Shown here piece by piece: positions 259-18,830 of a stretch of DNA of 54,170 nt. Made by a program: the position numbers and the translations under genes. The stretch comes from Gammaproteobacteria bacterium (GTDB lineage: Bacteria > Pseudomonadota > Gammaproteobacteria > Enterobacterales > Psychrobiaceae): positions 1 through 54,170 of the forward strand of contig JABSRU010000031.1 in assembly GCA_013214965.1 (NCBI GenBank), read 5' to 3'. The first letter of the stretch is position 1. The number at the start of each line of letters is the position of its first letter. Below the pieces are notes generated by a model, which saw only the letters and a program-made list of their open reading frames with translations, had not been told where the DNA came from and searched no databases.

Positions 259-312
259 ACGGTATACTTTGCGCCATAATTTTTAGAATTAGACCTATAT
301 TAGTGAGAAAAA

Positions 313-966: not shown

Positions 967-975
967 GAAATATAG

Positions 976-1437
976 ATGCTATCTAAATTAGAACACAAAA
1001 TCCCACCGCCAATTTGGGGGCTATTATTTGCCGCCTTAATGTACCTTGTGGCTGATATTATGCCGATTTTGTTATTTGTGAATGATAGTCAATGGTTAAT
1101 CGCTGGTTTGTTTATGGCGATAGGGTTCTTTATTGATGTTTATTCGGTGATTGGCTTTGTACGGGCCAAAACGACTATTAATCCATTGTCATTAGATGCC
1201 TCTGCTTTAGTGACATCTGGATTGTACAAGTATAGCCGTAACCCAATGTATTTGGGTATGTTGCTTATTTTGTTGGGGTGGATTACTTATTTAGGCGCAT
1301 TATCATCGTTGTTACTGTTGTATGTTTTTGTCTATACCATTAATCGACTACAGATAAAGCCAGAAGAAGAAAAATTAGAGCAATTATTTGGTCAACAATA
1401 CACCGATTACTGTCAACAAGCCCGTCGTTGGTTATAA
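976..1437 (+). CDS. Isoprenylcysteine carboxyl methyltransferase-family membrane protein
   Basis: A 153-residue integral membrane protein with about four hydrophobic segments. The C-terminal half carries the signature of the ICMT/PEMT family of SAM-dependent membrane methyltransferases: SGLYKYSRNPMYLG around residues 80-93, then a glutamate pair (EEE) and a Y-x-x-Y/C segment near the end. Bacterial members are common but their substrates are mostly unknown; no prenylated protein substrate is expected here. It lies 9 bp after the pdxH-like gene and is probably cotranscribed with it. The family assignment is firm, the substrate is not. Confidence 0.8.
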   Translation: MLSKLEHKIPPPIWGLLFAALMYLVADIMPILLFVNDSQWLIAGLFMAIGFFIDVYSVIGFVRAKTTINPLSLDASALVTSGLYKYSRNPMYLGMLLILLGWITYLGALSSLLLLYVFVYTINRLQIKPEEEKLEQLFGQQYTDYCQQARRWL

Positions 1438-1483
1438 GTTTGATTTAATTTTGTGCAACTGAATAAATTTCGTTAAACAGCGC

Positions 1484-1512
1484 TTTACAACAACTCCATT
1501 AGTCCGTACTAT
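1484..1512 (+). promoter_or_regulatory. Promoter of tRNA-Ser
   Basis: A -35 element TTTACA (1484-1489) and a -10 element TACTAT (1507-1512) are separated by 17 bp. They are followed by a GC-rich stretch, CACGGCGCT, just before the mature tRNA. Such a GC-rich discriminator is typical of stable-RNA promoters under stringent control. The same downstream stretch precedes the second tRNA-Ser copy at 54107. Confidence 0.6.
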
Positions 1513-1522
1513 TCACGGCGCT

Positions 1523-1613
1523 GGAGAGATGGCAGAGTGGTCGAATGCACCGGTCTTGAAAACCGGCATGGGTTTATAGCCCATCTAGGGTTCAAATCCC
1601 TATCTCTCCGCCA
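1523..1613 (+). tRNA. tRNA-Ser(UGA)
   Basis: A class II tRNA with a long variable arm. The acceptor stem GGAGAGA pairs with TCTCTCC (1603-1609), followed by discriminator G and an encoded CCA (1611-1613). The anticodon stem CCGGT/ACCGG encloses a loop with anticodon TGA at 1557-1559, which reads UCA and related serine codons. The T-arm GGGTTCAAATCCC is standard. A second copy, identical over the 64 bases visible, starts at 54107. Confidence 0.96.
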
Positions 1614-1621
1614 CTATTTAG

Positions 1622-1656
1622 AAAAGCCCGATAATTGAAGAATTATCGGGCTTTTT
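1622..1656 (+). terminator. Rho-independent terminator after tRNA-Ser
   Basis: Perfect inverted repeat AAGCCCGATAATT / AATTATCGGGCTT with a GAAG loop, ending in a run of T. It begins 9 bases after the CCA end of the tRNA and so ends the tRNA transcript. Confidence 0.9.
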
Positions 1657-1791
1657 GCATTCTAGTTCTCTCTCTTAATTCATTTTATTCTCAAATTTTC
1701 CATTGTTTTTCATTTAATATTTTTTATGCATTTTGTGAGTATAGGAAAAATATCTGAATGATGGAGACATTTAATTTCAAAAATATGACTA

Positions 1792-1895
1792 ATACCAATC
1801 TGACAAAGTTATTGCTCACTTGTGCTGGTTAAAATTAACGAATATTGCGTTGCTTTCAATCCCAATAGCGGGCTATTTCTCAATCAAATTGGTAT
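1792..1895. repeat. MITE-like palindromic-end repeat, about 104 bp
   Basis: The element starts ATACCAAT and ends ATTGGTAT, an 8-bp perfect terminal inverted repeat. The interior (tgacaaag ... ttgcgttgctttcaatcccaatagcgggcta) resembles a repeat I recall as abundant between genes in several alteromonads. It has no coding capacity. It occupies the centre of the 470-bp stretch between the tRNA terminator and the next gene; the rest of that stretch is AT-rich with no clear feature. Confidence 0.55.
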
Positions 1896-2127
1896 AAATA
1901 ATAAATTTGAGTTAATAATTTTATGACTTGTTATGTTCTCAGAAATAACCAAATCCACCAGCTAGCATGAAAAATGATAAGTAAACAATGTTCCTCGTTC
2001 CTCGTTGATCGGTGATATAAAATTAGATAATTATTTTTATATGGTAAAGTCGTAAACTTAACCATATAAGGCAAAAAGCCAGATGATTTACAGAGGTTGC
2101 CTCGTTAGACATAAAACGGAGACATAA

Positions 2128-2598
2128 ATGTACAAAAACAGACAAGCATTAGCTTTAGGTTCTTTAGCTTTTTTGACTGTAGCTTTTATTATAGCGATTG
2201 TTTTGGCGCTATGGGGCTGGCCACAATATAATGTTTACAGAATGGAATTAAATGGTCAAGCAGCCTTAAAAGAGGCTAAATGGTCTAAGCAAATTTTAAT
2301 CGAAGATGCAAAAGCACGAGAACAGGCTGCCTTGATGCAGGCTAAAGCAAGAGTCACCCTTGCTGAAGCTGAAGGAAAGGCAAATATAGTCAAAGCAAAG
2401 TCCGATGGACTCGCAGAGATTGAGCATGCCAAGGCAGCAGCTGAAGCTAATCGTATTATTGGTGATTCATTGAAAAATAATGAAGCCTACTTACGGTATT
2501 TATGGATTAAAGGTCTACATGAGGGGAATGGTGAGCGAATTTATATTCCTACGGAGGCTGGTTTACCAATTTTAGAAGCTGGTAAAGCGAAGAGATAA
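2128..2598 (+). CDS. Membrane-anchored Ala-rich coiled-coil protein, resembles the stalk of SPFH/prohibitin proteins
   Basis: 156 residues. Residues 8-32 form one strong transmembrane helix, ending in WGWPQYNVY. Residues 42-110 are rich in Ala, Glu and Lys in a heptad-like pattern (EAKWSKQILIEDAKAREQAA, then AEAEGKANIVKAK), as in the helical stalk of HflK/HflC and other SPFH proteins. The SPFH domain itself is absent. Similar short proteins occur in phages and bacterial genomes, sometimes named membrane protease subunit; no protease residues are visible. The ATG follows ACGGAG at suitable spacing. The lipoprotein gene follows 31 bp later in the same direction, so the two may act together in the envelope. 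Function unknown. Confidence 0.7.
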   Translation: MYKNRQALALGSLAFLTVAFIIAIVLALWGWPQYNVYRMELNGQAALKEAKWSKQILIEDAKAREQAALMQAKARVTLAEAEGKANIVKAKSDGLAEIEHAKAAAEANRIIGDSLKNNEAYLRYLWIKGLHEGNGERIYIPTEAGLPILEAGKAKR

Positions 2599-2629
2599 TG
2601 ATTAAATTATATATAAACAGGAAGTTAAT

Positions 2630-3175
2630 ATGTTCAAACAGATAAATATTATTGTAATGTTGTTGGTCGTGCTTGGTCTTACTGGCTGTGCGGGTCTTGG
2701 TAAGATGAAGGACGTTCAATTTGAAACAGTTGTCGCATCAGATAAATCGATGGTGAATATTGTACGGCGCAGCATCTTTTTGGGGGATGGTGCCGAAGTT
2801 GAAGCATGGGATGGTGATAAGTTTATTGGCACATTGAGTTCTGGCAAGTTGTTGCAATATCCAGTGGAGCCTGGAATTCATACTTTCATGGTTTATATGC
2901 AGGGATCTTGGGGAGTTGCAAAAGGTGACTTAAAGCCAGGCAAGACTTATTATTTGAAGTTTAATATGTCTGGGTTTGGCCCGATTAGTTTGGGTGTTGC
3001 CAAAGCCACTGATCCGCGTATCGAAAAATGGAATATGATGGACACGATCACCATCGATCAATCGTTACAGAAAGCGGTTCCCGAAAAATACATACAAGGT
3101 GCCAAAAAAATTCTTAAACGGATTACCGACGGCAAGGAAAATGTTACTCCAATCACCGATATAAACGCTCTTTAA
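2630..3175 (+). CDS. Predicted lipoprotein, unknown function
   Basis: 181 residues with a clear lipoprotein signal: charged start, hydrophobic core IIVMLLVVLGL and the lipobox LTGC, with lipidation expected at Cys19. The mature part has a beta-rich segment with GDGAEVEAWDGDKFIGTL and a later YMQGSWGVAKGDLKPGKTYYLKF stretch. This reads like the small surface lipoprotein domains that contain a PEGA- or DUF2846-like fold, but I cannot assign a family with certainty. It is preceded by AGGAAG 6 bp before the ATG and lies 31 bp after the coiled-coil membrane protein gene. A strong terminator follows, so the pair is probably one transcription unit. Confidence 0.75.
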   Translation: MFKQINIIVMLLVVLGLTGCAGLGKMKDVQFETVVASDKSMVNIVRRSIFLGDGAEVEAWDGDKFIGTLSSGKLLQYPVEPGIHTFMVYMQGSWGVAKGDLKPGKTYYLKFNMSGFGPISLGVAKATDPRIEKWNMMDTITIDQSLQKAVPEKYIQGAKKILKRITDGKENVTPITDINAL

Positions 3176-3214
3176 TATTTGGACGTTGATTGATATCACC
3201 GCTTGCTTATGTTC

Positions 3215-3244
3215 AAAGCCCGTCACATAGTGTGACGGGCTTTT
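3215..3244 (+). terminator. Rho-independent terminator after the lipoprotein gene
   Basis: Stem AAAGCCCGTCACA / TGTGACGGGCTTT with loop TAG and a short T-run. It lies 40 bp after the lipoprotein stop codon. Confidence 0.85.
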
Positions 3245-3254
3245 ACGCTTAGTT

Positions 3255-3310
3255 AACCTGAACTCGGGGTAAAGAGCTTTGTATCAAGTTTCTTATCCCG
3301 AGCTCAGGTT
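3255..3310. repeat. Imperfect inverted repeat, small intergenic palindromic element
   Basis: AACCTGAACTCGGG (3255-3268) pairs with CCCGAGCTCAGGTT (3297-3310) with one mismatch, around a 28-base loop. There is no T-run on either side, so it is not a typical terminator. It sits between the lipoprotein terminator and the 3' end of the acylase gene, where it may act as an mRNA-end structure for the acylase transcript. Confidence 0.5.
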
Positions 3311-3339
3311 AGTTACTAAACTCTTATCCAGCACTCTGG

Positions 3340-5799
3340 CTATTTAGCCACGAGCACTGTCTCTTTCAAGTCGGCAATAATATCTGATTCTGTGAATATC
3401 ACTGGGCGCCAGGTTTTGTCGGAATACATTTTAGTTTGATCTGAATAATGCGCTGACTGCGGATCGTGTGATTGACTAAAGGTTAGTATGGCTTGAGCTT
3501 GTGGTCCCTGTGGTGTCATTTCTAATGCCATCGCAAAACTGGTACCGTAGTTAACCCGATAAGCCGACTCGCCATTAAGTAAAGATAGCTGTGTTCCGAT
3601 TTGTTTTTCACCGATTTCTAACGTCACAAAGATCGAGGTGCTACGTGATGGTCTCGCGGTTTCAGCCATATTCATCACCCCTTCGAAGCTATAGCCTCCG
3701 GCAATCGGAATTTTGTTGTCACCTTTTAGTACATATTGAATATCGCCAAGTTTACTGTCTAGCGCAATACCTGCGGTGGTTAAACGAACAACCGCTTTTG
3801 CTAAAGCCGTCAGAGCATTAACAGGGTTTAAGTCAGCAGGGGTGGTTGCCCCATTGTTAGCATTAAATGGGGTGCTAAATAATGTTGGTGCTAGTGCGTT
3901 ATGGCTTGGCGAGCGATAGGACTGTAAGAATTCACGCATTAAATGTGCTCCCTTGCTGGCTAAATTATAGCGGCCATCCCAGTTATTGAGGACAGTGCAA
4001 GCTATGGTCAAATCGATACTTTGCTCGCCAAGTTCAACCATTGGTTGCTGTTGGCATAGAGTTACTAATTGAGCGCGAAGTTTTTCTGAGAACAACGAGC
4101 GATTATCAACAATCGTATCCCGTAGTTCCTGTAATGAAAATAGGTTGTCAGCGCCTGCGACACCTTGGCCAGAGATGTTTGAAATTAATTGGGCGTTATG
4201 ACGGGTACGGGCACTTCGTTCGGTGCGTTCAGGGCCATAAACAATGCTATATCCTTCAAGCAGGTGATCTAGGTTGGTTAACCAATGACTACTATTGGCA
4301 TTAAAGACATAATCATCACGTACCAATTGCGGCGCGGTCGTTACTGAGCGTAAACCCGGTGTCACATCTGATTCAAACTCTTGCCATTGATGTACCGAAG
4401 TATGACCAGGTAAAAGAAGAGAACCGCCACCATTTAACCACAGTGAAGATCCCGGTTGTTTGGTCACTGCTATTTTGAGGTAACTTTCGGTCGCCGCACT
4501 AAATGCTGGTACATTGGTCGCATCTATATACGTTGTATTACCTGACTTATCTATCATCACGGTATTAGCCCATGGGTTGCCTTGAATTTCGGTTAAACGA
4601 GCGACGACTTCTTGGCTGCTTTTGGCTTTGTTGATAGCTAACCACTGATCCAAGACTTGGTTATTACCACTATTAGCATCTCGATAGGTAATAGCACTGG
4701 TATGCGTCCAACCTAATAATGGACTAATACTACTCATATCAATCACTGGACCAAAATGTGAAAAATAAATGGTTTTTGGAATTTTGGTTGTTTTACCGTC
4801 GCCAGTATTGACCTCAACCGAGATTTCTCTGGTTGTCATCGCTACAGACTCACCATCATAGATATAGCGTGTGGGATCGGTAGGATCGAGTGATAATTGA
4901 TACAGGGTAAAATGCTTGGCTTGCGAGACAGTATGAGTCCATGCGACATCGTTATTAAAACCAACCAATACGCCAGGTAAACCGATAAATGTAACGCCTG
5001 TGACATCTAATTTGCCAGGGATCACTAAATGATTTTCAAAAAAACGAAGTTCTCCATCCCAAGGGAAGTGTGGGTTAGCCAGTAACAATGGATGACCAGA
5101 CTCGGAACGTGTGGCACCAATTCCCCAGCCATTACTACCTATGCCACTATTTATTAGGACTAGATCAGGATCTAATTGAACATTCAGCTTGGCATACTGA
5201 CTTTGCACTTTGGGTTTCTTTTGCGTCATCACTGGTGGATTAGCTGCGGCTATCGCGGGCGCTAGTCGGCGGCCACTGGCCAGCAGGGAGATATCGATGG
5301 TATATGCCAGTAAGTCTTGCCCAGTAATTGGTGCAACCCAAGTGGCACCTACACAAGGTGTTGGGTAATTATCTGCTGAACCACGTTGGGCCAGAGAGTC
5401 ATTAAAGCCTTGGGCGTAACCTATTAATATATCGCGGGCTTGCTGGGTAATACCGTTCCATGCTTGCTCTGCTTGCGACATAATATCTAACGCTTTATAG
5501 CCCATATCACTGGCAACATTGGCATTATTAATCCCAGGACCTAGGAAAAGAGACTTTAGGCCTTTAAATTTCATCATTTGCTCTGACAATGTGCACATAT
5601 TATCTTTCGCGTGCGCAAATGCAATGCCGTAACCTAAACTGCCATAATTATCTGCAGTAATATGAGGTACGCCATAACTGGTATAGCGTATTTGTGCAGA
5701 ATAAAGCGGGCGATCTGAATCATCTATCTTGTTGTCTGAACAACCGGTTAAGGCCATCGTGATCGCGATGGCACTAAGTTTGATAGCTATATTTTTCAA
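3340..5799 (-). CDS. Penicillin acylase-family lipoprotein (Ntn hydrolase)
   Basis: 819 residues. The signal ends in the lipobox LTGC with Cys20, so the protein is predicted to be lipid-anchored. The family hydrolyses amide bonds (beta-lactam side chains, acyl-homoserine lactones, aculeacin and others). Precursors are cut autocatalytically, and the new N-terminal serine of the beta chain is the nucleophile. Here that serine is Ser222 in GIGSNGWGIGATRSESG, preceded by a spacer and an alpha-chain region (residues 30-190) with YGVPHITA typical of the family. NPHFPW (residues 242-247) and the WTHTVS stretch are further family features. The true substrate cannot be read from sequence; AHL acylase activity is possible, but so are other amides. 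The gene stands alone on the minus strand. Confidence 0.85.
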   Translation of the reverse strand: MKNIAIKLSAIAITMALTGCSDNKIDDSDRPLYSAQIRYTSYGVPHITADNYGSLGYGIAFAHAKDNMCTLSEQMMKFKGLKSLFLGPGINNANVASDMGYKALDIMSQAEQAWNGITQQARDILIGYAQGFNDSLAQRGSADNYPTPCVGATWVAPITGQDLLAYTIDISLLASGRRLAPAIAAANPPVMTQKKPKVQSQYAKLNVQLDPDLVLINSGIGSNGWGIGATRSESGHPLLLANPHFPWDGELRFFENHLVIPGKLDVTGVTFIGLPGVLVGFNNDVAWTHTVSQAKHFTLYQLSLDPTDPTRYIYDGESVAMTTREISVEVNTGDGKTTKIPKTIYFSHFGPVIDMSSISPLLGWTHTSAITYRDANSGNNQVLDQWLAINKAKSSQEVVARLTEIQGNPWANTVMIDKSGNTTYIDATNVPAFSAATESYLKIAVTKQPGSSLWLNGGGSLLLPGHTSVHQWQEFESDVTPGLRSVTTAPQLVRDDYVFNANSSHWLTNLDHLLEGYSIVYGPERTERSARTRHNAQLISNISGQGVAGADNLFSLQELRDTIVDNRSLFSEKLRAQLVTLCQQQPMVELGEQSIDLTIACTVLNNWDGRYNLASKGAHLMREFLQSYRSPSHNALAPTLFSTPFNANNGATTPADLNPVNALTALAKAVVRLTTAGIALDSKLGDIQYVLKGDNKIPIAGGYSFEGVMNMAETARPSRSTSIFVTLEIGEKQIGTQLSLLNGESAYRVNYGTSFAMALEMTPQGPQAQAILTFSQSHDPQSAHYSDQTKMYSDKTWRPVIFTESDIIADLKETVLVAK

Positions 5800-5897
5800 T
5801 TTAATTCTCCGTTTATTAGTAACCTAATACAGCAACAGGAATAAATAAATTAACTGATATGTCGTGGGATGTCGATGAGTTTTGTTATGGTTTCATT

Positions 5898-6608
5898 TCA
5901 TCGTGGTGCATCAATAATGATAATTTCCGTGTCAGTTAATGCATTAATTGTAATGTTTTTTTGCTGAATTATTTCAGCGCCATCACCTTTTTTCATGATA
6001 ATACTTTGTTGGTTATCGATTATCTCAAACTGCCCCTGTGATGATAAAACATAGGCTTGATGATGAATAAGATGATTTATTTGTGTACCTTGCTTTAATT
6101 TCCCCCCAAAGATCCGTGCCTGTTGGTGGATAAATAATGCCTTGTTTTTATCTTCGTCAAAGCCTGATACCAACAAAGGTAATTCATCATGGCTGTGCTG
6201 TTGCGGAAATTTTTTACTATCCCATCTTGGGGTTACATTATGTTGGTTAGGTTCAATCCAAACTTGAAATAATGTTAATGGCTCTTTACTTAAGTTGTAT
6301 TCAGAATGAGTGATCCCGGTACCTGTGCTCATCACTTGTACTTCTCCTGATGTTGTTATGCCTTTATTGCCTTTGCTATCTTGATGGGCTACTTCACCTG
6401 AACGGACAAAAGTAATAATTTCCATATTTTTATGGGGGTGAGCGGGAAAGCCACTATTAGGTGCGACCCAATCATCATTAATCACTCTCAAAGTACCAAA
6501 ACCCATTCTGCGTGGATTGTAATAGTGTGCAAAGCTGAAATGATAATTGGCTTTTAACCAATGATGGTCTGTTTTTCCGAGTTGTTGAAAAGGGTAATGC
6601 TTGATCAT
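5898..6608 (-). CDS. Pirin-family protein (YhaK/YhhW type)
   Basis: 236 residues forming the double cupin of pirins. The N-terminal cupin carries the metal ligands of the family: His57 and His59 in AHPHKNMEIITF, and His101 and Glu103 in GITHSEYN. Some pirins have quercetin 2,3-dioxygenase activity; in E. coli YhaK responds to redox stress. The gene lies 46 bp after doxX on the same strand and probably shares its transcript. Both are divergent from a YhaJ-like LysR gene. In E. coli, YhaJ, a pirin and a DoxX protein (YqjF) also belong to one response to aromatic or quinone-like compounds, which suggests a similar role here by inference. Confidence 0.88.
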   Translation of the reverse strand: MIKHYPFQQLGKTDHHWLKANYHFSFAHYYNPRRMGFGTLRVINDDWVAPNSGFPAHPHKNMEIITFVRSGEVAHQDSKGNKGITTSGEVQVMSTGTGITHSEYNLSKEPLTLFQVWIEPNQHNVTPRWDSKKFPQQHSHDELPLLVSGFDEDKNKALFIHQQARIFGGKLKQGTQINHLIHHQAYVLSSQGQFEIIDNQQSIIMKKGDGAEIIQQKNITINALTDTEIIIIDAPR

Positions 6609-6654
6609 GGTGATATCTCCTTGTTTGGCGCCAAATAAGGCTCGATTTAATTGA

Positions 6655-7101
6655 TTACTTCAATTTATTTGAAAGGATATTATCGATTGAGTATTTACCA
6701 CCACCCTGTAGTAGTAAGGCGATCGTTATGGCTAATAATGCCAGCGCGAACTCATAACCGTTATTACTCATAAATAACCCGTTGTCGATGTGGGTACTAA
6801 AGATAGCGACTATCATGATAATGGCTAAAGCTAATGAGGTTGGTCGAGTAAGTAGTCCTGCGAGTAGTAACAAGCCACCAAAAAACTCAGTGCCACCAGC
6901 TATTAATGCCATCAAATATCCTGGTGTTAGACCAATTGATTCCATCCATTGGCCCGTGGCTTCTAGCCCGTAACCGCCAAACCAAGCGAATAGCTTTTGA
7001 CTGCCATGAGCAGTAAAAATTATCCCGGCAATTAAGCGTAGTGGTAATGCTGAATTGTTATTGTCAGATGTTAAAATGTTCTTAATTATTGATGTATTCA
7101 T
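6655..7101 (-). CDS. DoxX-family membrane protein (YqjF-like)
   Basis: 148 residues with about four transmembrane helices. The family pattern is clear: LRLIAGIIFTAHGSQKLFAWFGG near residues 22-44, the GGTEFFGGLLLLAGLLTRP segment, and a glycine-rich hydrophobic third helix. DoxX proteins act in the inner membrane in redox or thiosulfate-linked processes; the E. coli relative YqjF is induced by nitroaromatic metabolites through YhaJ. The gene is first in a two-gene unit with the pirin gene and starts about 130 bp from the divergent lysR gene, with the 19-bp palindrome at 7197-7215 in between. Confidence 0.85.
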   Translation of the reverse strand: MNTSIIKNILTSDNNNSALPLRLIAGIIFTAHGSQKLFAWFGGYGLEATGQWMESIGLTPGYLMALIAGGTEFFGGLLLLAGLLTRPTSLALAIIMIVAIFSTHIDNGLFMSNNGYEFALALLAITIALLLQGGGKYSIDNILSNKLK

Positions 7102-7196
7102 GTTGTGTTCTCTTTGGTTGTTTTGATGTATTCATTGATGTGAGGTTATTGTATTGATTGGCCCTAGTTGTAATAACCCCTATTTTTTGTTTAATA

Positions 7197-7215
7197 TATT
7201 CAAATTATTTGAATA
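7197..7215. promoter_or_regulatory. Candidate LysR operator between doxX and lysR
   Basis: TATTCAAAT-T-ATTTGAATA is a perfect 9-1-9 palindrome. It contains a T-N11-A core (T at 7200, A at 7212), the known signature of LysR-type binding sites. It ends 18 bp before the lysR start codon, in the shared region with doxX, so it could serve both autoregulation and control of doxX-pirin. Confidence 0.6.
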
Positions 7216-7233
7216 GTTGAAAGGGGGTATAAT

Positions 7234-8139
7234 ATGCACAGTTCTCCAATCACCATAGAAGCATTGCTAGTACTCGATGCTATCGATAGTCGTGGTAGTT
7301 TTGCTGCGGCTGCGGAGCAATTAAATAAGGTGCCATCAGCACTTTCATATGTTGTACAAAAGCTCGAACAGCAGTTGTCAGTCACCCTTTTTGTGCGGCA
7401 AGGTCGGCGATCTGTATTAACACCAGCAGGGCGTCATCTGTTGGTAGAGGGGCGAAAAGTACTTGCTGCGATGAGTAAAATCACCGAGCAAACCCAAACG
7501 ATCTCTCATGGTTGGGAACCTAAAATTCGTATCGCTTTTGATTCCATCATCGATATTGAATGTTTACTCGAACCTTTAGCGCTATTTTTGAATGAGCACC
7601 CTAATGTTGAAGTGGATCTCTGTGAAGAAGTGATGAATGGTGGATGGGAAGCGTTAACTGATGGCCGGGTCGATTTATTGATCGGTGCTTCAGCACCAAT
7701 CCCCAACCAGCAGGGAATTAGGTCAAGCAAATTCATTCGCTTAAGTAATGTGTTTGTCGTGCCTATGGGCCATGAACTAGCCAGTGCGGCTCAACCGATT
7801 AACAAAAATGACATTAAAGATTATCGCACTGTTGTAGTCCATGATTCAGCGCAACATGAAGTTCCTTGGTCAAGTAATGTGATTGAACAAAGCAGGCACT
7901 TTTTTGTTGATTCGGTCGCACATAAAATTCAGGCGATTGTTGCTGGGATCGGTGTTGGATTTTTACCGCTTAAACGCATCGAGCCGTACATCAATGCTGG
8001 TAAGTTAGTTGAGGTGGACATGGCGGATGGCAGGCAATCAATCGATACGGTTATCGCGTGGAAAACAGTCAATCAGGGAAAAGGGTTACAACGACTGAGG
8101 CAGATTATAATGCATTGTCAATCGTCTGATTGGGGCTAG
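7234..8139 (+). CDS. LysR-family transcriptional regulator, YhaJ-like
   Basis: 301 residues. The N-terminal winged helix-turn-helix (residues 5-62) reads IEALLVLDAIDSRGSFAAAAEQLNKVPSALSYVVQKLE in substance and is very close to what I recall of E. coli YhaJ. The remainder is the two-lobed LysR effector-binding domain. YhaJ senses breakdown products of dinitrotoluene and related aromatics and activates yqjF (doxX) and yhaK (pirin). The presence of exactly these two gene types in divergent orientation supports the same regulatory logic. The ATG at 7234 follows an AGGGGG ribosome-binding site. The region downstream is non-coding and appears to hold an RNA gene. Confidence 0.9.
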   Translation: MHSSPITIEALLVLDAIDSRGSFAAAAEQLNKVPSALSYVVQKLEQQLSVTLFVRQGRRSVLTPAGRHLLVEGRKVLAAMSKITEQTQTISHGWEPKIRIAFDSIIDIECLLEPLALFLNEHPNVEVDLCEEVMNGGWEALTDGRVDLLIGASAPIPNQQGIRSSKFIRLSNVFVVPMGHELASAAQPINKNDIKDYRTVVVHDSAQHEVPWSSNVIEQSRHFFVDSVAHKIQAIVAGIGVGFLPLKRIEPYINAGKLVEVDMADGRQSIDTVIAWKTVNQGKGLQRLRQIIMHCQSSDWG

Positions 8140-8207
8140 GTTAAGTTTGATGGTGTTACTTTGAAAATATAGGGAATTTACAAAACTTCGTTAATGTACT
8201 CTGTGTG

Positions 8208-8225
8208 TGTGCGAGATCTCTCACA
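8208..8225. promoter_or_regulatory. Candidate GacA/UvrY-binding box upstream of the csrB-like RNA
   Basis: TGTGCGAGATCTCTCACA is an 18-bp inverted repeat with one imperfect pair. It is nearly the same as the UvrY-binding sequence I recall from the E. coli csrB promoter region (TGTGAGAGATCTCTTACA). It lies about 175 bp before the predicted RNA start, a distal position like that in enterobacteria. This suggests BarA/UvrY (GacS/GacA) control. Confidence 0.7.
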
Positions 8226-8357
8226 TGGTTGTGAGATGTTTGCGTGTTATTGGGAGTGGTTGAGTAATGCGTTTTTTTAACTATATGATAATTAATTGGT
8301 TATGTTTTATGTATAACTTCTGGCTAAGATTGGAATAAAGTAATTTTTATTTACAAC

Positions 8358-8385
8358 TTGTTTAAAATTGTACAAAAGATATTAT
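8358..8385 (+). promoter_or_regulatory. Predicted promoter of the csrB-like RNA
   Basis: A -10 element TATTAT (8380-8385) and a weak -35 TTGTTT (8358-8363) with 16-bp spacing. The predicted start is near 8392, just before the dense run of GGA motifs. The weak -35 fits a promoter that needs an activator. Confidence 0.45.
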
Positions 8386-8574
8386 TTAAACCATGGAAAG
8401 GGAAGTTGATTTATCAGGATGATAACAACGACTCTGTGCTGTAATTATAGGGATATAATTGAAAGTGGGATTACTATTTGAGATTGACCCCTTAATTGAT
8501 AGCCCAATAAAATTAACAGGATGTTGATTTTTCTTATCAGGATGATGAGTAAGCTACGGATAGCGAAAAGGATA

Positions 8575-8698
8575 AACACAGGATGTGTTGATGTTAGTTA
8601 AGGATAAACTAGCAGCTAAGGATAGTATGAAGGAGCAACACAGGATGTGTTGATGTTAGTTAAGGATAAACTAACCGCTAAGGATAGTATAAGGACAA
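8575..8698 (+). repeat. 62-bp tandem duplication inside the csrB-like RNA
   Basis: Two adjacent copies, 8575-8636 and 8637-8698, differ at only a few positions (about three substitutions and one small shift near the end). Each copy carries four GGA motifs, one in the ACACAGGATGTGT hairpin and one in the TTAGTTAAGGATAAACTAA hairpin, so the duplication adds CsrA-binding sites. Confidence 0.9.
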
Positions 8699-8845
8699 GC
8701 TTTAGATATAAGCAAATATGGATATGGCAACGGATTGTCAATGGTGGACCAGCTGAAGGAATCAGCGTTTTGGAGAAGTCTAGGGAGTGACTGAGCAAAG
8801 GATGCTACGTACAAATTCTATTGCTGGATGCTGTACAACTAATGA

Positions 8846-8875
8846 GGGTATAACGTTAATCGCTATACCCTTTTT
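8846..8875 (+). terminator. Terminator of the csrB-like RNA
   Basis: Stem GGGTATA (8846-8852) / TATACCC (8864-8870) with an 11-base loop, followed by TTTTT. It ends just before the convergent DUF3301 gene stop codon at 8891. Confidence 0.85.
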
Positions 8876-8890
8876 CTTGCCTAAAATTTA

Positions 8891-9202
8891 TTAATCAGCA
8901 ACGCGATAGGCTGGCGTTTCTATTTTTATCACTTGATTACCATTAATGATAATATATCCCAAGTAAAAACTTTCACCATCACTACTAAATTCAAATTGAT
9001 AGGTTGCTCGCCAACAAAAGTGACCATTGCCGTTACGTGATGGCTTTAATTTGATCCTGCCCAGCGCTAATAATTGTAAGTTCAGTTTGTCACAATGTTG
9101 ATCGGCGCTTGCTTTGGCTAATTCAGCCATGGAGCGTGTTTGCCAAAAAAGCCACATTACCAAACAAAGTATTAATAAAGCAATTATCTCATATAATGAC
9201 AT
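8891..9202 (-). CDS. DUF3301 family protein, membrane-anchored
   Basis: 103 residues: one N-terminal transmembrane helix (residues 4-22), then a conserved soluble part with ADQHCDKLNLQLL, a run of basic residues and YQFEFSSDGESFYLGYI. This is the pattern of the gammaproteobacterial family DUF3301, whose function is unknown. The start codon lies 3 bp after the stop codon of the DUF3549 gene, so the two are likely translationally coupled. This pairing is also usual in Shewanella and Vibrio as I recall. Confidence 0.8.
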   Translation of the reverse strand: MSLYEIIALLILCLVMWLFWQTRSMAELAKASADQHCDKLNLQLLALGRIKLKPSRNGNGHFCWRATYQFEFSSDGESFYLGYIIINGNQVIKIETPAYRVAD

Positions 9203-9205
9203 TCG

Positions 9206-10246
9206 TTAACCGCCAATCAGTTTGGCAATAGCATTGGCTAGTGCATCACTACGTTCTGGATGACGTAATGCGTTTAAAAAATGGGTTCGAGTAACCGGGA
9301 TGGCGACTAAATCACTAAAGAGCTGATTGAAAACATCTTGCTCATTCGGTGATTTGGCTACAAACTCTAAAAATTTAACCGCAGCGATTGTTGAGTCCAA
9401 TACTTGCCAGTAACGGCCAGCGATCATGACCGAAAAATCTAGATTACTGCTGACTAAGTTACTGTTTAACGCTAGGGTTAGTGCTTGTTCTTGAAAGCCT
9501 CGACCTTTACTGTGTGATAGCGCACGCAGGGCATGAAGCGCAATAACAGCGTTATTCTCTTGCAAGGCGACTTTAAGTTTATTAAGCAGCACTTGAGCAA
9601 GTGTAGTTTCTATCGCTATATTTTCTAAGCAGCAACATAGGGCGCAAAAAGGCTGTGGGGGTAACTGCTCTATTGCGTGACAAATTTGAGTGAGATTGTC
9701 ATTTTGCTCAATGCGCGTTGCAATATCAGCTAAACCTTGAAAACCAATGTGTTGCCATTGTTCAAAATGATTTTCATCATTAATAAATCTTAACGCATCC
9801 GCCATAAACTGGCTTGGTGGTAATTGCATCGCTAAACGAGATTGGCTAGTAAACGCGGCGAGTTTTTGTTCCGAAGGCTTGAAGATTAATGGGTTGTTAT
9901 TAAGCGCTGATTGTTGTTCTTTATCCGGCTGCTGCTCTAAATTACTTCCTAGTGCATTGACAACCAATTCTAAAAATTGATTACGAGCGCCCTGAATCAA
10001 CAAGCCTTTTTCGTCAAGTGGTAATTTCAAAAACCACACGTAGTGAGTGTCGTTTGCTGTTTTATTCCAAAATAATACCGCCAGTAATGCGTGTTGTTGG
10101 ATCGGGTATGGGTAGGGCAAAGCCGCTTGTTCAAATTCAAAAAATTGTTGGTGTGATATTTTTTGAACTCGGCGTCCCATATCAAAAATTCTAAATTGTG
10201 TACCCGCTTCTAACAAAAATTCGCTAAGTGTGTTTATATTATTCAC
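9206..10246 (-). CDS. DUF3549 family protein
   Basis: 346 residues from a GTG start at 10246. An upstream TTG at 10261 is in frame but lacks a ribosome-binding site, and related proteins begin near the (V/M)NNINTLSEFL segment. The conserved N-terminal stretch FRIFDMGRRVQKI identifies the gammaproteobacterial family DUF3549. The C-terminal half is helical and repetitive (ALRALSHSKG, LNALRHPERSDALANAIAKL), like HEAT-type repeats. No catalytic motif is visible. It forms a two-gene unit with the DUF3301 gene. Confidence 0.78.
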   Translation of the reverse strand: MNNINTLSEFLLEAGTQFRIFDMGRRVQKISHQQFFEFEQAALPYPYPIQQHALLAVLFWNKTANDTHYVWFLKLPLDEKGLLIQGARNQFLELVVNALGSNLEQQPDKEQQSALNNNPLIFKPSEQKLAAFTSQSRLAMQLPPSQFMADALRFINDENHFEQWQHIGFQGLADIATRIEQNDNLTQICHAIEQLPPQPFCALCCCLENIAIETTLAQVLLNKLKVALQENNAVIALHALRALSHSKGRGFQEQALTLALNSNLVSSNLDFSVMIAGRYWQVLDSTIAAVKFLEFVAKSPNEQDVFNQLFSDLVAIPVTRTHFLNALRHPERSDALANAIAKLIGG

Positions 10247-10313
10247 AAAAAATACCGTCAAAAAATTTTAGCCATTGTAGCAATCATTGAATGCGAAGGG
10301 TTAAATTTCTTGT

Positions 10314-10544
10314 ATAATCACTGCTATTACACACGGCAAGCATATTATAATCTCGATATCGCTACATATTGTGTAGACTTGCTGTGAATACATCCATGTA
10401 AGCTCGATTTTTCATTTCGATAATTGCACCTGCATTATCTTACTATAGCCATCCATGGCTAAACATGAAAAAAAGGTTTACTCGACATGCACCGACATCT
10501 CTGGCATTACGAGTGTTTTATTTTAAGCGCTCTTGCCGTGCGCT
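10314..10544 (+). promoter_or_regulatory. Promoter and structured 5' leader of yqcC-truC
   Basis: The 320-bp gap before yqcC holds a consensus -10 element TATAAT (10314-10319), giving a leader of about 240 nt. The leader contains several inverted repeats: CACGGCAAG (10332-10340) with CTTGCTGTG (10378-10386), inside which CTACA-TATTG-TGTAG (10362-10376) forms a hairpin; TAGCCAT-CC-ATGGCTA (10446-10461); and AGCGC / GCGCT (10526-10544) just before the ribosome-binding site. It matches no riboswitch I know. No -35 with standard spacing is obvious. Confidence 0.35.
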
Positions 10545-10569
10545 ATTACATTGGAAACAGGAAATAACT

Positions 10570-10878
10570 ATGTCAAAAAATGCTAAAATTATCGATATTC
10601 TCGAACTGATTAATCAAGAAATGATCCTATTGGATTTATGGCAAAGCACGTTACCTAGTAAAGAAGCGTTAGCCAGTGAAGAACCTTTTTGTTGTGATAC
10701 TTTAACGTTTACCCAATGGTTAGAGTTTATTTTGTTGCCGAAGATGAGCATGCTGCTTGATTCTGATTTGCCATTACCCAGTGAATTTGAAATTTTACCG
10801 ATGGCCGAACAATCATTAGATCAAACAAAACATCAGCAGTTGATTGCACTGATTTCTCAACTCGATGCTCAGTTTTAG
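10570..10878 (+). CDS. yqcC: YqcC family protein
   Basis: 102 residues. The start at 10570 is preceded by ACAGGAAA at proper spacing; a longer in-frame reading from 10465 would add a segment with no similarity to the family. The protein resembles E. coli YqcC throughout: an acidic helical N-terminus, a central PFxxDTLxFxxWLxxILLPKMxxLLD motif and a helical end. The YqcC structure is known but its role is not. It overlaps the region just before truC (7 bp between stop and the truC start), the same order as E. coli yqcC-truC, which points to a link with tRNA modification. Confidence 0.88.
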   Translation: MSKNAKIIDILELINQEMILLDLWQSTLPSKEALASEEPFCCDTLTFTQWLEFILLPKMSMLLDSDLPLPSEFEILPMAEQSLDQTKHQQLIALISQLDAQF

Positions 10879-10885
10879 AGTCGCG

Positions 10886-11668
10886 ATGTTTGATGCGCCA
10901 TTAGAGATATTATATCAAGATCAATATCTGGTCGCGATTAACAAACCCGCTGGTTTATTGGTACATAAAAGTTATTTAGCCCGTAAAGAAACCCATTTTG
11001 CGATGACGATGTTACGGGATCAACTCGGGCAATACGTGTACCCCATTCATCGACTAGATCGACCAACCTCCGGGGTGCTGTTGTTTGCATTATCCAGTGA
11101 GGTAGCGAGGTTACTGAACGAGTTGTTTAGCGCTCATGAAGTGAAAAAAGGTTATATCGCCATGGTAAGAGGGTATTTATCTGGTAGCGATATGCTTGAT
11201 TATGCGCTGAAAGAGCAGCTTGATAAAATTGCCGATAAACGCACAAATCAGGATAAAGAGCCACAACAAGCCATCACCCATTGGGCGACGATGGCACTGG
11301 CTGAAAATCCTGAGCCAATAGGTCAATTTGAAGCTGCCCGTTACAGTCTGGTGGCATTAGCTCCCAAAACGGGTCGTAAACATCAATTGAGACGGCATAT
11401 GGCTCATTTACGTCACCCAATGATTGGTGATACAACCCATGGCGATGGTGCGCAAAATAAATATTTTAAACAACATTTTACCGCGAATCGCTTAATGCTT
11501 CATGCTGCTCAACTGCAATTTTTACATCCGGTGACTGGGCAGACCTTGAATATTAATGCGCCACTTGATGATGCTTTTCACGTTATATTTAAACGCTTTC
11601 AGTGGGATAGCTTAGCAATTAATCCGATTGTATTCGTTGCCAATGCGTTAACTGAAAAAGGAGCTTAA
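10886..11668 (+). CDS. truC: tRNA pseudouridine(65) synthase TruC
   Basis: 260 residues, the family length. TruC converts U65 in the T-stem of some tRNAs to pseudouridine. The RluA-type catalytic motif HRLDRPTSGVLLF contains the nucleophilic aspartate. The KPAGLLVHKS N-terminal motif and the KTGRKHQLRRHMAHLRHPMIGDTTHG segment are typical of TruC. The start at 10886 matches the family N-terminus (MFDAPLEILYQD); an upstream ATG at 10865 lies inside yqcC. The stop codon falls inside a terminator hairpin. Confidence 0.93.
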   Translation: MFDAPLEILYQDQYLVAINKPAGLLVHKSYLARKETHFAMTMLRDQLGQYVYPIHRLDRPTSGVLLFALSSEVARLLNELFSAHEVKKGYIAMVRGYLSGSDMLDYALKEQLDKIADKRTNQDKEPQQAITHWATMALAENPEPIGQFEAARYSLVALAPKTGRKHQLRRHMAHLRHPMIGDTTHGDGAQNKYFKQHFTANRLMLHAAQLQFLHPVTGQTLNINAPLDDAFHVIFKRFQWDSLAINPIVFVANALTEKGA

Positions 11669-11680
11669 TGCTCCTTTTTT
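11655..11680 (+). terminator. Terminator overlapping the truC stop codon
   Basis: AAAAAGGAGC-TTAAT-GCTCCTTTTTT. The truC stop codon TAA (11666-11668) is in the loop. The A-run and T-run on both sides also allow function for the convergent minus-strand gene. Confidence 0.85.
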
Positions 11681-11690
11681 ATTCAAATGT

Positions 11691-12887
11691 TTACTCAGTA
11701 ATTTCTAATTCACTCCACACCAATCGATGATCCGATGATGCATTGCGGTCTTTAATCAGGTGGTAGTTACTGTCACTCTTTTGTGGCCAAAATACGCCAT
11801 TATTAATCACTTTTAAACCATGACGAGATGGCAGCACATAATCAGCTCGCATGCCCCAATGAGCAGTATGATGCTTGGCGTGATTATTGTTAAGCTGGTG
11901 ACTTAAGCCACCACTGCGTTGGGGGATTTTATCATCATTTACATTAATGTGGCTAAGTAACGCACCAATCGCTTCTTTACGGGAGCTGCCTTCAACGGAT
12001 GATGAATTTTGGTCGCCCATAATAACAAAGCTGCTGTTGGTGGTTAAGCCACCTTTGGTGCCTTTGTCATCGTAAATATAACGTGCTCGGTCACCAGAAA
12101 CATAATCAAGCCAAAAACGCACTTCATCATGATTTTTAGTACCATTGCGATCTTCTGGGCCGTCAAACACTGGCGGCGTTGGGTGTGATGCTAACACATG
12201 AACTGTTGCGCCATTAACAAGTACTGGAACATCCCAATGTGACTTGGATGATAATGGATATTGTTGCCAAATTTCATCGCTATAGAAAAATTTACCAGTG
12301 CTTGGCACGATAGGGCGCAGGGCATTGGGCATATCTGACCATTTGAAATTTTGGAAGGTCCGGATATTTTTGACATCGATTGGGTAGCGAGAGAGTAACA
12401 TCATCCCAAAATGGCCTTCAAAAAAGCCAAACCCCCACGCGTCGCCTTGCACGCCTGTTGCTTTTCCATCGCCGGTTAAATCAAATGGACTAGCTTTGCC
12501 TGTATTGACCTTGCCGTAATAGTAATAAGGATAGTCAATGGCCTGAGCATTGCCTTGGGCAACATTAAGGTATTTTTTAATAAATAGTTCAACACCTTGT
12601 TTAGGATCGTCAATATAATCAAATTCATTAAGTAGAATAACATCTGGACGAGTGGTTTGAATGATTTGTGCGATATTGCGAATTTGTTGGCTGTTATTTT
12701 TAAGCTGGTTAATTAACACTTGATTAGAGGCTTTCTGAGCCGATCGTCCAACATAATTAGTGGCATCCATGCTGACATTGAAAGTTGCTATTTTAAGTGT
12801 GTTGGCGGTGATAGTGCTGGTTTCATTTGTCATGCTGCACCCTAAAATTAGTAGTGACATTAGAGTAGGAATGATTAATTTGATCAT
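11691..12887 (-). CDS. Lipoprotein of the endonuclease/exonuclease/phosphatase family
   Basis: 398 residues with the lipobox LILGC (Cys17), so it is probably membrane-anchored on the periplasmic side or outside. The EEP fold is shown by KIATFNVSM near residue 32, the VILLNEFDY catalytic glutamate segment, MGDQNSSS (the D-x-N pair) and the C-terminal SDHRLVWSEL with the catalytic Asp-His. Family members cleave DNA, phosphodiesters or phospholipids. Secreted bacterial members like this one often belong to extracellular phosphate scavenging, but the substrate is not determined here. The gene is alone, convergent with truC and 150 bp downstream of the TonB receptor gene on the same strand. Confidence 0.85.
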   Translation of the reverse strand: MIKLIIPTLMSLLILGCSMTNETSTITANTLKIATFNVSMDATNYVGRSAQKASNQVLINQLKNNSQQIRNIAQIIQTTRPDVILLNEFDYIDDPKQGVELFIKKYLNVAQGNAQAIDYPYYYYGKVNTGKASPFDLTGDGKATGVQGDAWGFGFFEGHFGMMLLSRYPIDVKNIRTFQNFKWSDMPNALRPIVPSTGKFFYSDEIWQQYPLSSKSHWDVPVLVNGATVHVLASHPTPPVFDGPEDRNGTKNHDEVRFWLDYVSGDRARYIYDDKGTKGGLTTNSSFVIMGDQNSSSVEGSSRKEAIGALLSHINVNDDKIPQRSGGLSHQLNNNHAKHHTAHWGMRADYVLPSRHGLKVINNGVFWPQKSDSNYHLIKDRNASSDHRLVWSELEITE

Positions 12888-12984
12888 TAATGTTTGCTCG
12901 AAGATAAGATATTTTTAGTGTTATACCATAAAGTGATAATTAATAGTTTTAAACTTAATAAACCATCAATACTTTGTGATTGAG

Positions 12985-13016
12985 TTAAAAAAATGCCAGT
13001 CAAGTGACTGGCATTT
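12985..13016 (-). terminator. Terminator of the TonB-dependent receptor gene
   Basis: Perfect inverted repeat AAATGCCAGTCA-AG-TGACTGGCATTT next to an A-run, which reads as a T-run on the minus strand. It lies 22 bp after the receptor stop codon. Confidence 0.88.
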
Positions 13017-13038
13017 ATCGTGGATTAACTAAGTTGGT

Positions 13039-16000
13039 TTAGAACTTGTAGCTGACGCCAACTTTAATGCGCCATGCTGAACGTTCTGCATCAAACGATG
13101 TTGGAGCTGAGTCAGCGAAACCGCTGTCTTGTTTAGTGGCATCGTAGCCTGCACCATAAATATATTGGTTGTTAGCTCGGTCATAATCAACATTAACTAA
13201 GTCGCGGCTATTCTTGAAATCAGTGGTATAAACTTTACCAGCGCTGCTATCAATTAAGTTAAGTAAGTTTTTAACACTAACGAAGAAAGTGCCTTTGTGA
13301 TCGTCAGCAAAGCCTGGGATTTCTTGTTCGAATTTAAAATCTAAGCGGCTAACCCAAGGGCCTGATGCTGAGTTTTTAGGAACAATAGAACCAGCATACT
13401 TGCCAAGATCATTAGCATCAATCACTTCTTTTAGCATTTCATAGCTATAACCGTCGGTATAAGTAACTGCTGAATCATCGGCACCGGTAGGGATATACGC
13501 TAGGAACTCACCTCGTTTGAAATTGTCTTGACCACCGAATGCTCCGAAACCATTCTCGAATACCCAGCTATATGAACGACCTGAACTGCGCTCGCCTTGT
13601 AATGAGAAGCGAGAGTTTAGACCATCAAATATTTCGGTATTGTAAGATAAGTTTAATTTGAAGCTGTGTTCTATTTGATATCTACTTGTACCTGCAATTG
13701 GATTATTACGATCCGATGCATTGTACTTAGCGTAGTTAGAATTAGCGGTTGAGCTAGTGCCACCGACTACCTCATCAGCATCTTGGTTGGCATAAGAAGC
13801 ATTGAATCGAACGCCATTATCAAATAATTTCCCAGCACTTAAGGTGAATGTTTTACGTTTAGCATCGCCACCGTTGGTCAATAGAATGTCAGCAACGTCC
13901 TTATATCCTACATTGTAAATAGTACGGCCATCTGGACCTTCTACTGAATTGTTCAACGATTCACGATATAGCTCTTTCCAAACTACACTGCTTTTTGCTT
14001 TAACATACATGTAGCTGGTTTCAAAGTTCCAATCATCACCAAGCATCTCGCCTAAATCAGCGGTGTAATTTAACGTTAACCCGACACGCCAATCTGAAGG
14101 TAATTTGAAATTAGGATCAATGGCATTAACATCACCATTACCCGCTTGTAGAGATGTACCTGCAGGGATAGCATCAAATACTGGATTAGTTAAATCAACA
14201 CCATCAGTATTGGCGCGAACATTTATCTGACCATCGTTAGAATAAGAATTGGAAATCCATACGTTTGGTGTACCACCATAATAACGGCCAATACCACCGC
14301 TTAAGGTAAGGTTATCTTCAATTAGCCAATTAAAACCAATGCGAGGTAGCACAATGTCAATACCATCTAAAGTTTCGGTATTGCCGAAATCATAGTTGCT
14401 TTTAAAACGGCCATTTTCACGAATTAAACCACTGGTTGATACTTTTTCATAGCGGACACCGACATTAAGCCAAAAGTCAGAGTTTATTTCCCATTTGTCT
14501 TCAACAAACAAGCTTAATGTTTTAATGGTGAATTCAGCTGACGCATCATTAGAATTACCGGTATATGCGTTTGAGTAGCTAAATTTAGAGGCTTTTTTAT
14601 TTTGGAAGTCTTCTACTGAATCAAATTCCCATGAGCCTAAAGAAAAAGGGACGAATTTGTTAAATACATCTAACTTTTCTAAACCAATACCGAAGCTTAA
14701 ACTATGTTCATCAAATAAATATTCACCATTTAAATTGATGGTTAATGCATCATTATCGAGTTCATTGGCATGTCGATAAACATCGGTGCCAAAGTACACT
14801 GCTAATTCATCACCACAGTAGTTTCCTGGTTTGATATTGATACAAACTTGGCCCAGACCTGATTGACCAAGGTTTTCTTGTCGTGTTGGATTTGATTTTA
14901 AGCCAACTTTAAATTCGGTTGAAAACTCATCGGTCCAAGTTGAGTACAGTTGAGCAGAATAGGCTTTAAGATCTTGACTATTATTATACCAATGACTAGA
15001 TAAACCAAGTTTGTTATATTTAGTATTTTGAGGGCTAATGCTATTACCAGTGGTATTTTGATAAGTAAATGAAGCACGATGATCGTCGTTAATATTCCAA
15101 TCTAGCTTTAATAGTATTTTTTTATCTTCATTAGTTAACGATTGACCGTACACTCCAGCTTCAACACCATAGACATCACGGGCTATCTTTTGAATATCAT
15201 TAATGGTGTCTTTATCTAGACCATCGATAATATTTGCAGTGCTTGCACCTTCAGGTCCATAACGATGAACAAATGGTGTTTCAGATTTTTCAAAGGCAGC
15301 GAAAAAGAATAAAGTATCTTCAATTAATGGTCCGCCGACAGCAATCCCATAAGTTTTACGAGAAAAGTCTAAATCAACATCCGTACCATCTTCACGCTTT
15401 GGTGTACCTGCTAGTGAATCGCTAGAATAGTCGTAAAACACTTCGCCAGTAAATTCGTTGCCACCTGATTTTGTAACAGCATTAATTGATGCGCCAGTAA
15501 AGCCGCTGGCTTTTGCATTAAAAGGTGCAATGTCGACAGAAATCTGATCGATGGCTAATAATGAAATAGGGGAACCATTGGTTGGGTAGCCATTACTGCT
15601 TAGACCAAAATCATCATTTTGCTTAACACCATCCACTGAAATACTATTGAAGCGTGGGTTGACGCCAGCAACTGACATCTCGCTTCTGCTATCATCACTG
15701 ATATTGATTAATGGATTTTGACGTAAGATATCTTTTAAATCACGATCAAAGGCAGGAGCGTTATTAATGGCTTCAGCGCCATACACACTACCGATACCAT
15801 TTTTTGAACCGTTAATTAAAGCATGTCGTGAGCCAACTACACCAATTCGTTCAACTTCTTGACCTATTTGCATAGAAACATCAACACGAGAAACCTTACC
15901 AAGCTGTAGAAATAAATTGTTTACTTCTTGATCTTGATATACATCTGAGTCAATCTCTACTTTATATGGGCCTCCAACACGTAAGCCATTGGCTAGAAAT

Positions 16001-16209: not shown

Positions 16210-16594
16210 TGTAGTTATCCTTCGAACTGATGTAGTTTGCTAAATTAAATCTGTTGCTGTGTCTTATTGTAGTTGTCACAATTTACTAAAGCATTGTGAT
16301 CATTTTATGACAAAATTTTAAACATGCGTATTACAACGGCTTCTGTCGATAAAGTCTAGTTGCAAGTTTAGTCACACTTTTGAATAAAACTTGCTTATTT
16401 TTGAACAGAAACCGCACAAACCTATGAATGTGGCATTAATATTGATGATTTATACTTATTTACTGCATAAAATGAAGATCACAAAAAAGGCAAAAACGTG
16501 ACGCGTGTCACATTTGGTTTTTGTTAAGTTAAGTCAGATTTAATCAGCAAGCAACAAAAATTATATTTATGCTGCTTGTGCTTGGAGAGGGGAA
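16210..16594. other. Intergenic region between the TonB receptor and the deoxynucleoside kinase
   Basis: AT-rich, no open frame worth calling. It must hold the receptor promoter on the minus strand, but no strong -35/-10 pair stands out. One palindrome is present at 16498-16511. Confidence 0.6.
16498..16511. promoter_or_regulatory. Short palindrome, possible regulator site
   Basis: GTGAC-GCGT-GTCAC is a perfect 5-4-5 inverted repeat, 290 bp from the receptor start. It resembles CRP-type half sites (TGA...TCA), but the spacing (4) is shorter than the CRP consensus (6). Confidence 0.25.
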
Positions 16595-17266: not shown

Positions 17267-17535
17267 GAGAACTCGCGATATGAATACGACAAAAAAAAGC
17301 ATACTATCAAAATTAAAGATAAATAATATTGAACTTGCTCAAAAAATCGATGCTATTATTTTAGTTGCTCATTTTTTAGCATTCAAATGGATTGACTGCT
17401 TGTTATTTAAGCGATACAGCTCACTGAAGTGCTTTTTTATAATTGCCTCTTGGGCGAAAGGACGTATGATCAAGTGCATATTTTTTGATTTATTAAATAC
17501 CACCCAGATGGTGTTGACCCAGAGTAGGAGTTGTT

Positions 17536-18693: not shown

Positions 18694-18704
18694 AAAATCA
18701 CTGC

Positions 18705-18728
18705 TTAGGCTCAGGTAACTGAGCCTAA
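18705..18728. terminator. Hairpin after the 385-residue protein gene
   Basis: TTAGGCTCAG-GTAA-CTGAGCCTAA is a perfect 10-bp stem 11 bp after the stop codon. The following T-run is missing, so termination is likely but not certain. Confidence 0.5.
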
Positions 18729-18830
18729 CTAATCTAAACGACATTGTTACGTCAGCGATTCCTTCAAATGCATTCGCCATGAGCGATAATAATTTTATTT
18801 AACATCCGATCTTCCTTGATTGAATCATGT

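Follow-up and report, generated by a model that had tools for sequence, protein, structure and literature searches.

The DNA stretch analysed here, hereafter the window, comprises 54,170 nt of a contig from a gammaproteobacterium of the family Psychrobiaceae and belongs to a 4.25-Mb assembly of 144 contigs that is 95.7% complete. Between a lysR gene, whose ORF ends at position 8139, and the oppositely oriented ORF of a DUF3301 gene lies a gap of 751 bp. An earlier reading of this region, made from the sequence alone, had described a gap of about 750 bp without a credible protein gene; in agreement with this, the ORF list holds no plus-strand ORF of at least 60 aa within the gap, and the sole ORF listed inside it is a 60-aa frame on the minus strand. 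The features in the gap and beside it are collected in Table 1.

Table 1. Features at the lysR–DUF3301 gap and downstream of it (positions in the window; RNA start, promoter and protein-binding sites are predictions).
Feature	Position	Strand	Basis and remarks
UvrY/GacA box TGTGCGAGATCTCTCACA	8208-8225		Pattern search; binding predicted
Half-site TGTGAGATG, 4 bp downstream of the box	8230-8238	+	Likeness to the E. coli half-site
-10 element TATTAT	8380-8385	+	Putative, read by eye
CsrB-type RNA, about 487 nt, 25 GGA	8392-8878	+	Start inferred from sequence
GATTGACCCC	8482-8491	+	All 10 letters identical across the five long copies whose 5' half can be read
Two tandem 62-nt units, 4 GGA each	8552-8675	+	87% identical
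Intrinsic terminator: hairpin 8845-8871 and T-rich tail (CCCTTTTTCTT)	8845-8876	+	Recurs in the genus
DUF3301	8891-9202	-	ORF and Pfam; context, outside the RNA
DUF3549	9206-10261	-	ORF and Pfam; context, outside the RNA
yqcC/DUF446	10465-10878	+	ORF, Pfam and tblastn with E. coli yqcC; context, outside the RNA
truC-like pseudouridine synthase	10865-11668	+	ORF, Pfam and tblastn with E. coli truC; context, outside the RNA

The plus strand of 8392–8878 contains 25 GGA motifs and no TCC, the GGA motifs spanning 8395–8828 (434 nt), which reproduces the count of about 25 in 435 bases given by the sequence-only reading. Dinucleotide shuffles of the same interval carried 12.5 ± 2.3 GGA, and none of 2000 reached 25; longer motifs were enriched as well, with 11 AGGAT (1.3 expected) and five CAGGATG (0.06 expected). 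Among 487-nt segments starting clear of the region, on both strands, the maximum was 12 GGA. The placement of many motifs in hairpin loops, likewise claimed earlier, is borne out by prediction: 18 of the 25 GGA could form hairpin loops (loops of 3–8 nt, at least four closing pairs, G-U allowed, each GGA taken alone), compared with 8.1 ± 2.2 in token shuffles, which permuted GGA blocks together with the remaining bases; none of 1000 such shuffles reached 18. The predicted mean unpaired probability of GGA was 0.74, against 0.48 ± 0.04 in shuffles, none of 100 being as high. Such a GGA count, with most motifs predicted to be looped or single-stranded, is characteristic of CsrA-sequestering RNAs, and both are features of a likely CsrA sponge. 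Folding energy was rejected as evidence on the strand: the plus-strand RNA has a z-score of −3.97, but the reverse strand folds as stably (z = −4.63), so that the energy leaves the strand undecided and it is the GGA content that decides for plus.

Each of the two tandem 62-nt units carries one copy of ACACAGGATGTGT. At its 3' end, this non-coding RNA closes with an intrinsic terminator. A simple terminator scan lists the hairpin in the minus-strand sense only, which we ascribe to an A-C mismatch in the plus-sense stem, where 10 of 11 pairs form. Since the hairpin with its T-rich tail occurs in all six aligned long copies of the genus, we read it as a plus-strand terminator, and the T-run terminator noted earlier from the single sequence thus recurs among relatives.

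At the curated cut-offs, Rfam gave only tRNA matches in the window. A permissive search, however, matched RF00018 (CsrB) to 8556–8880 on the plus strand with 42.7 bits and an E-value of 3.3e-10. The alignment runs over model positions 1–356 of 356, with several large gaps in its middle, and stands 28 bits short of the gathering score of 71 bits. An Rfam scan had been proposed as a check, and its answer was divided: a full-length match with a low E-value was found, but not at a score that the family accepts. The cut-off is a curator's threshold and not a functional property; by that threshold, the RNA is outside the listed membership of RF00018. With a score below it, routine annotation would miss the RNA, in line with the earlier remark that pipelines often overlook this kind of gene. 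The match is the only one to RF00018 at E ≤ 0.001 in the assembly. Among 14 control genomes, E. coli alone matched, joined by Thermotoga maritima at E ≤ 0.01. A family-wide genome search returned only the nine genomes of the genus (the genome under study, G000, and eight genus-mates, G001 to G008). At E ≤ 0.01 six of these nine matched RF00018, and no score passed the cut-off. When stricter filters were applied to 148 relatives, 79 of the 148 matched RF00018, whereas the nine genus genomes gave no match; under such settings, the Rfam model is blind to this lineage.

Upstream of the RNA lies the UvrY/GacA box; a search of the window for its pattern, allowing up to one mismatch, returned no other site (0.28 matches expected by chance). 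In E. coli csrB, the UvrY site TGTGAGAGATCTCTTACA is centred at −183/−182 and a half-site, TGTAGGAGA, follows 5 bp past the inverted repeat (PMC4682653). All five long genus copies with upstream sequence, the window's included, have a UvrY-type box, and a TGT/CGT-type half-site stands 4 bp after the box in five of five. From the centre of the box to the first GGA of the RNA we counted 178.5 nt in the window (to the GGA at 8395, skipping an isolated GGA at 8332 that precedes the presumed start), 181.5 nt in G006 and G007, 183.5 nt in the long copy of G008 and 190.5 nt in E. coli; G002 fits less plainly, with GGAs from 139.5 nt onward. From this geometry we infer an RNA start near 8392, just after the putative −10 element, and the box would then lie about 175 nt ahead of the start, as it does at E. 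coli csrB. Hexamers resembling a −10 element stand at the matching position in G006, G007 and the long copy of G008. The promoter proposed at 8380–8385 is absent from the promoter-scan listing and has no clear −35.

The order of genes points to the same family. In E. coli K-12 it is truC, yqcC, csrB, syd, queF; in the window, the RNA is followed by DUF3301, DUF3549, yqcC and truC, so that yqcC and truC are shared neighbours. E. coli Syd and QueF had no match in window positions 1–20000 (E ≤ 1e-6), and lysR occupies the side where E. coli has syd and queF. We also inspected 20 stretches, chosen by us among the RF00018 matches in 19 other genomes of the order: near the csrB GGA peak, truC was found in 10, DUF3549 in eight, DUF3301 in six and syd in eight, and in the other 10 stretches neither yqcC nor truC was found (E ≤ 1e-4). 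Judging by this synteny, the window RNA seems to occupy an old csrB locus, and lysR is a local neighbour on its other side.

As the RNA comes directly after lysR and on the same strand, it might be thought a long UTR of lysR, or else a UTR of another gene or a protein gene that escaped recognition. We find this scarcely credible. A protein gene is opposed by the lack of a plus-strand ORF of 60 aa, and a UTR by the fact that the RNA has its own box and its own terminator. Besides, no homologues of DUF3301, yqcC or truC were found in the 5.6–8.9 kb around six of seven named lysR loci (the seventh, on a 3.1-kb contig, was left out of this comparison), the lysR relatives being labelled Shewanella, Colwellia, Glaciecola and two bacterial MAGs, whereas within the genus the RNA accompanies DUF3301.

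DUF3301 is present in seven of the nine genus genomes, and a GGA-rich RNA adjoins it in five: the genome under study, G002, G005, G006 and G007. Thus, four of eight genus-mates keep a similar RNA at the same position; lack of GGA conservation in relatives, which had been named as grounds for abandoning the assignment, is not what the genus presents. In G004 the contig ends inside DUF3301, and in G005 it ends within the RNA. In G008 an EAL-like gene (by eye) stands beside DUF3301, and a different contig carries a long CsrB, which ends in the same terminator. G001, G003 and G004, in assemblies of 180–600 contigs, had no RF00018 match at E ≤ 0.01, and the DUF3301 search gave no match in G001 and G003. 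As these three genomes are fragmented and their DUF3301 is missing or cut, loss of the long RNA cannot be inferred from them. Ahead of the terminator, GGAGTGAC is found in five of the six long copies (not in G008). The middle of the RNA, on the other hand, varies among copies, which have gained or lost GGA units: the 62-nt unit is present twice in the window, and a unit three times in G005 (by eye).

In G002:C2 (L047:4919–5900), the CsrB-type RNA reaches about 1 kb, much more than the 369 nt of E. coli CsrB, with repeated GGA units and a run of N inside; Tandem Repeats Finder reported no array in this copy at score 40, and its repeat structure was read by eye. One of 11 RF00018 rows, at G002:C12:268909–269276, was rejected as a Csr RNA: by eye, it is built of a hairpin unit that recurs, and no UvrY box was found in the 0.3 kb upstream, which is all that the contig has. 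On the same contig, L026:13880–14573 contains a hairpin unit repeated around GTCAGGATGAC, which gives this presumably false match. In another family of the order, L108:3982–7225 (G017:C1) displays five tandem GGA-rich peaks with a spacing of about 700 nt, each with its own RF00018 row.

The score below the RF00018 cut-off might suggest a dead remnant, or a purine-rich intergenic stretch that resembles CsrB by chance. Such an explanation appears very improbable to us, for the box, the spacing between box and RNA, the GGA loops and the terminator are all present, and a similar gene has been kept at the same place in half of the genus-mates.

Partners of a Csr RNA are encoded in the same assembly. 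A CsrA homologue was found at C94:337–495 (86.7 bits); a UvrY homologue of 218 aa, 70% identical to that of E. coli, lies on C74, where the ORFs after uvrY, which we take to be uvrC and pgsA, follow the E. coli order; and a BarA-like hybrid kinase is encoded on C33 (40% identity over residues 2–913 of 918). The sequence-only reading had also suggested a link with a GGDEF/EAL gene near 27 kb, and this part found no support. CsrD has degenerate GGDEF and EAL motifs, but the protein encoded at 27324–29336 (−) has both motifs intact (by eye), and as a CsrD candidate it stands only in 20th place among 28 rows (E = 4e-6, 19% identity). With E. coli CsrD as the query, no clear orthologue was found in the genome, the best row having 21% identity.

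Overall, the GGA anatomy, homology to RF00018, box spacing, synteny, conservation in the genus and partner homologues agree, and on their account we consider 8392–8878 (+) to be, with a probability of about 95%, the gene for a CsrB-type RNA acting as a CsrA sponge, which is the identity originally proposed. Judged by sequence, this is a known kind of switch, of which the RNA described here is a new, divergent member. By analogy, the sensor kinase BarA would drive phosphorylation of UvrY, and phosphorylated UvrY would bind the box at 8208–8225 and activate the promoter about 175 bp downstream. The resulting untranslated RNA of about 487 nt would present some 25 GGA motifs, 18 of them loop-capable. 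CsrA dimers, each with two RNA sites, would bind these motifs, and the RNA would in this way draw CsrA off its mRNA targets. Transcription, the start site, control by UvrY, and the binding and titration of CsrA are all presumed here from what is known of the family.

Near the 5' end, the element GATTGACCCC is kept letter for letter in the readable long copies, unlike most of the 5' half, which drifts among copies. It lies 87–91 nt from the assumed start in four copies and at 102 nt in G002, where the position is uncertain. Combined with CAGGA at a set distance downstream, GATTGACCCC occurs once each in G000, G006, G007 and G008 and nowhere in the other genus genomes; a backwards control pattern had one match among the nine genomes, in G002. 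A rival reading gives the CsrB-type RNA a second, non-sponge function exerted through the conserved GAUUGACCCC, be it pairing with another RNA, binding of another protein, or service as the −35 (TTGACC) of an internal promoter that yields a shorter RNA. The invariance of GATTGACCCC in five of five readable copies amid a drifting 5' half speaks for this idea, and an internal promoter would find favour in TTGACC-18-TAAAAT, the best promoter-like match in 8100–8950 (10 of 12), and in the several csrB2 sizes on Northern blots of Shewanella oneidensis (PMC3171408). Against it, the last eight letters of GATTGACCCC were absent from the GGA-rich stretches of the 20 loci outside the family, and predicted accessibility is inconsistent: in G006 and G007 most of the element is open, G008 gives a mixed picture, and in the window copy, as in what can be read of G002, pairing predominates. 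No pairing partner for it was found inside the RNA (by eye). The promoter scan gave three sites, against 3.7 in shuffles, and no convincing −10 follows the element in G002 (by eye). Moreover, as G006 and G007 closely resemble each other, the five copies amount to fewer than five independent cases. We therefore regard a second function as unlikely. Equally doubtful is the broader scenario in which the CsrB of the genus gained a fixed GAUUGACCCC about 90 nt from its 5' end, outside the GGA motifs, for a second job, and its sponge capacity shifts through gain and loss of tandem GGA units.

Apart from the long CsrB-type RNA, the genome contains a second, short Csr-type RNA on another contig, G000:C112:17845–18048 (−) (L130:3346–3549), with 11 GGA in 204 nt and 130.4 bits against a short-class model based on four such copies from three genus-mates. 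This model found 11 places above 100 bits in eight of the nine genus genomes, seven of the 11 outside model building; no copy above 100 bits was found in G001, whose assembly is 80% complete. Rows below 50 bits were not counted; among them, one overlaps the G004 copy, one in G002:C2 lies inside a long CsrB, several read the terminator of a counted copy in reverse, and a row in G001 is devoid of GGA. Upstream of the C112 copy stands the box CGTAAGAGATCTCTTACA, one base off the searched pattern. A strict box match precedes eight of the 11 short copies, G000 having this near match and G004 a box that precedes a doubled copy; for the short copy of G003:C111, no box was found in the 220 nt upstream. 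In the alignment of the 11 copies, 23 of the 32 predicted pairs are kept despite changes on both sides in at least one sequence, although a given pair may be broken or gapped in as many as four of the 11. The listed Rfam match of the C112 copy is PrrB/RsmZ with 25.2 bits, against a cut-off of 44; the listing omits one overlapping match of that clan with a lower score. E. coli carries both CsrB and CsrC, a pair brought to mind by the long Csr RNA and the short one of the genome under study.

Two tandem short Csr RNAs, each with its own UvrY box, are found in L023:6783–7631 (G008:C1). Other box-like sites in the genome under study were considered as second copies and rejected. The site at C123:71563 falls at the end of an ORF, transaldolase-like by our reading, and is followed, in the next half kb, by only four and five GGA on the two strands; those at C33, C96 and C118 come with only one to five GGA.

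In the literature consulted, the closest known systems are E. coli CsrB, Shewanella CsrB1/CsrB2 and the Pseudoalteromonas Pf1 Csr RNA. E. coli CsrB (RF00018) has 22 GGA in 369 nt, a UvrY inverted repeat about 180 bp upstream accompanied by a downstream half-site, and yqcC and truC as neighbours. The window RNA exceeds it in length by about 120 nt, has DUF3301 and DUF3549 between itself and yqcC, bears GATTGACCCC, misses the family cut-off and lacks a Syd or QueF match nearby. The C112 RNA invites another comparison. E. coli CsrC and Pseudomonas RsmX/Y/Z are short Csr RNAs; it resembles them in its length, its GGA number and its PrrB/RsmZ match, but it lies outside the window and scores under the RsmZ threshold. 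For Shewanella oneidensis, the published description gives CsrB1 and CsrB2 of predicted 420 and 421 nt with UvrY boxes, and csrB expression more than 100-fold lower in uvrY and barA mutants (PMC3171408). Compared by that description, the two systems differ in that two long copies flank a transposase gene there, whereas one long copy and one short copy located elsewhere are found here. The Csr RNA of Pseudoalteromonas fuliginea Pf1 has 21 GGA and the GacA box CGTGAGACATCTCTTACA, is a reported regulator of glycogen in E. coli, and has all its 260 reported matches within Pseudoalteromonas (PMC9927453). Likened by description, it too is a divergent Csr RNA of a single marine genus. At the level of titles and abstracts in the literature searched, which left most subscription papers outside, no Csr RNA was reported for Psychrobium, a genus name that is our guess rather than an established one.

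Our analysis thus identifies the probable CsrA antagonist of a lineage in which none of nine genus genomes reaches the curated RF00018 cut-off; the other, short Csr-type RNA found alongside it in the genome likewise falls below curated cut-offs. To conclude from annotation alone that these bacteria are devoid of Csr RNAs would be wrong. The combination of box, spacing, GGA loops and yqcC–truC neighbourhood offers a practical route to divergent copies of this kind.
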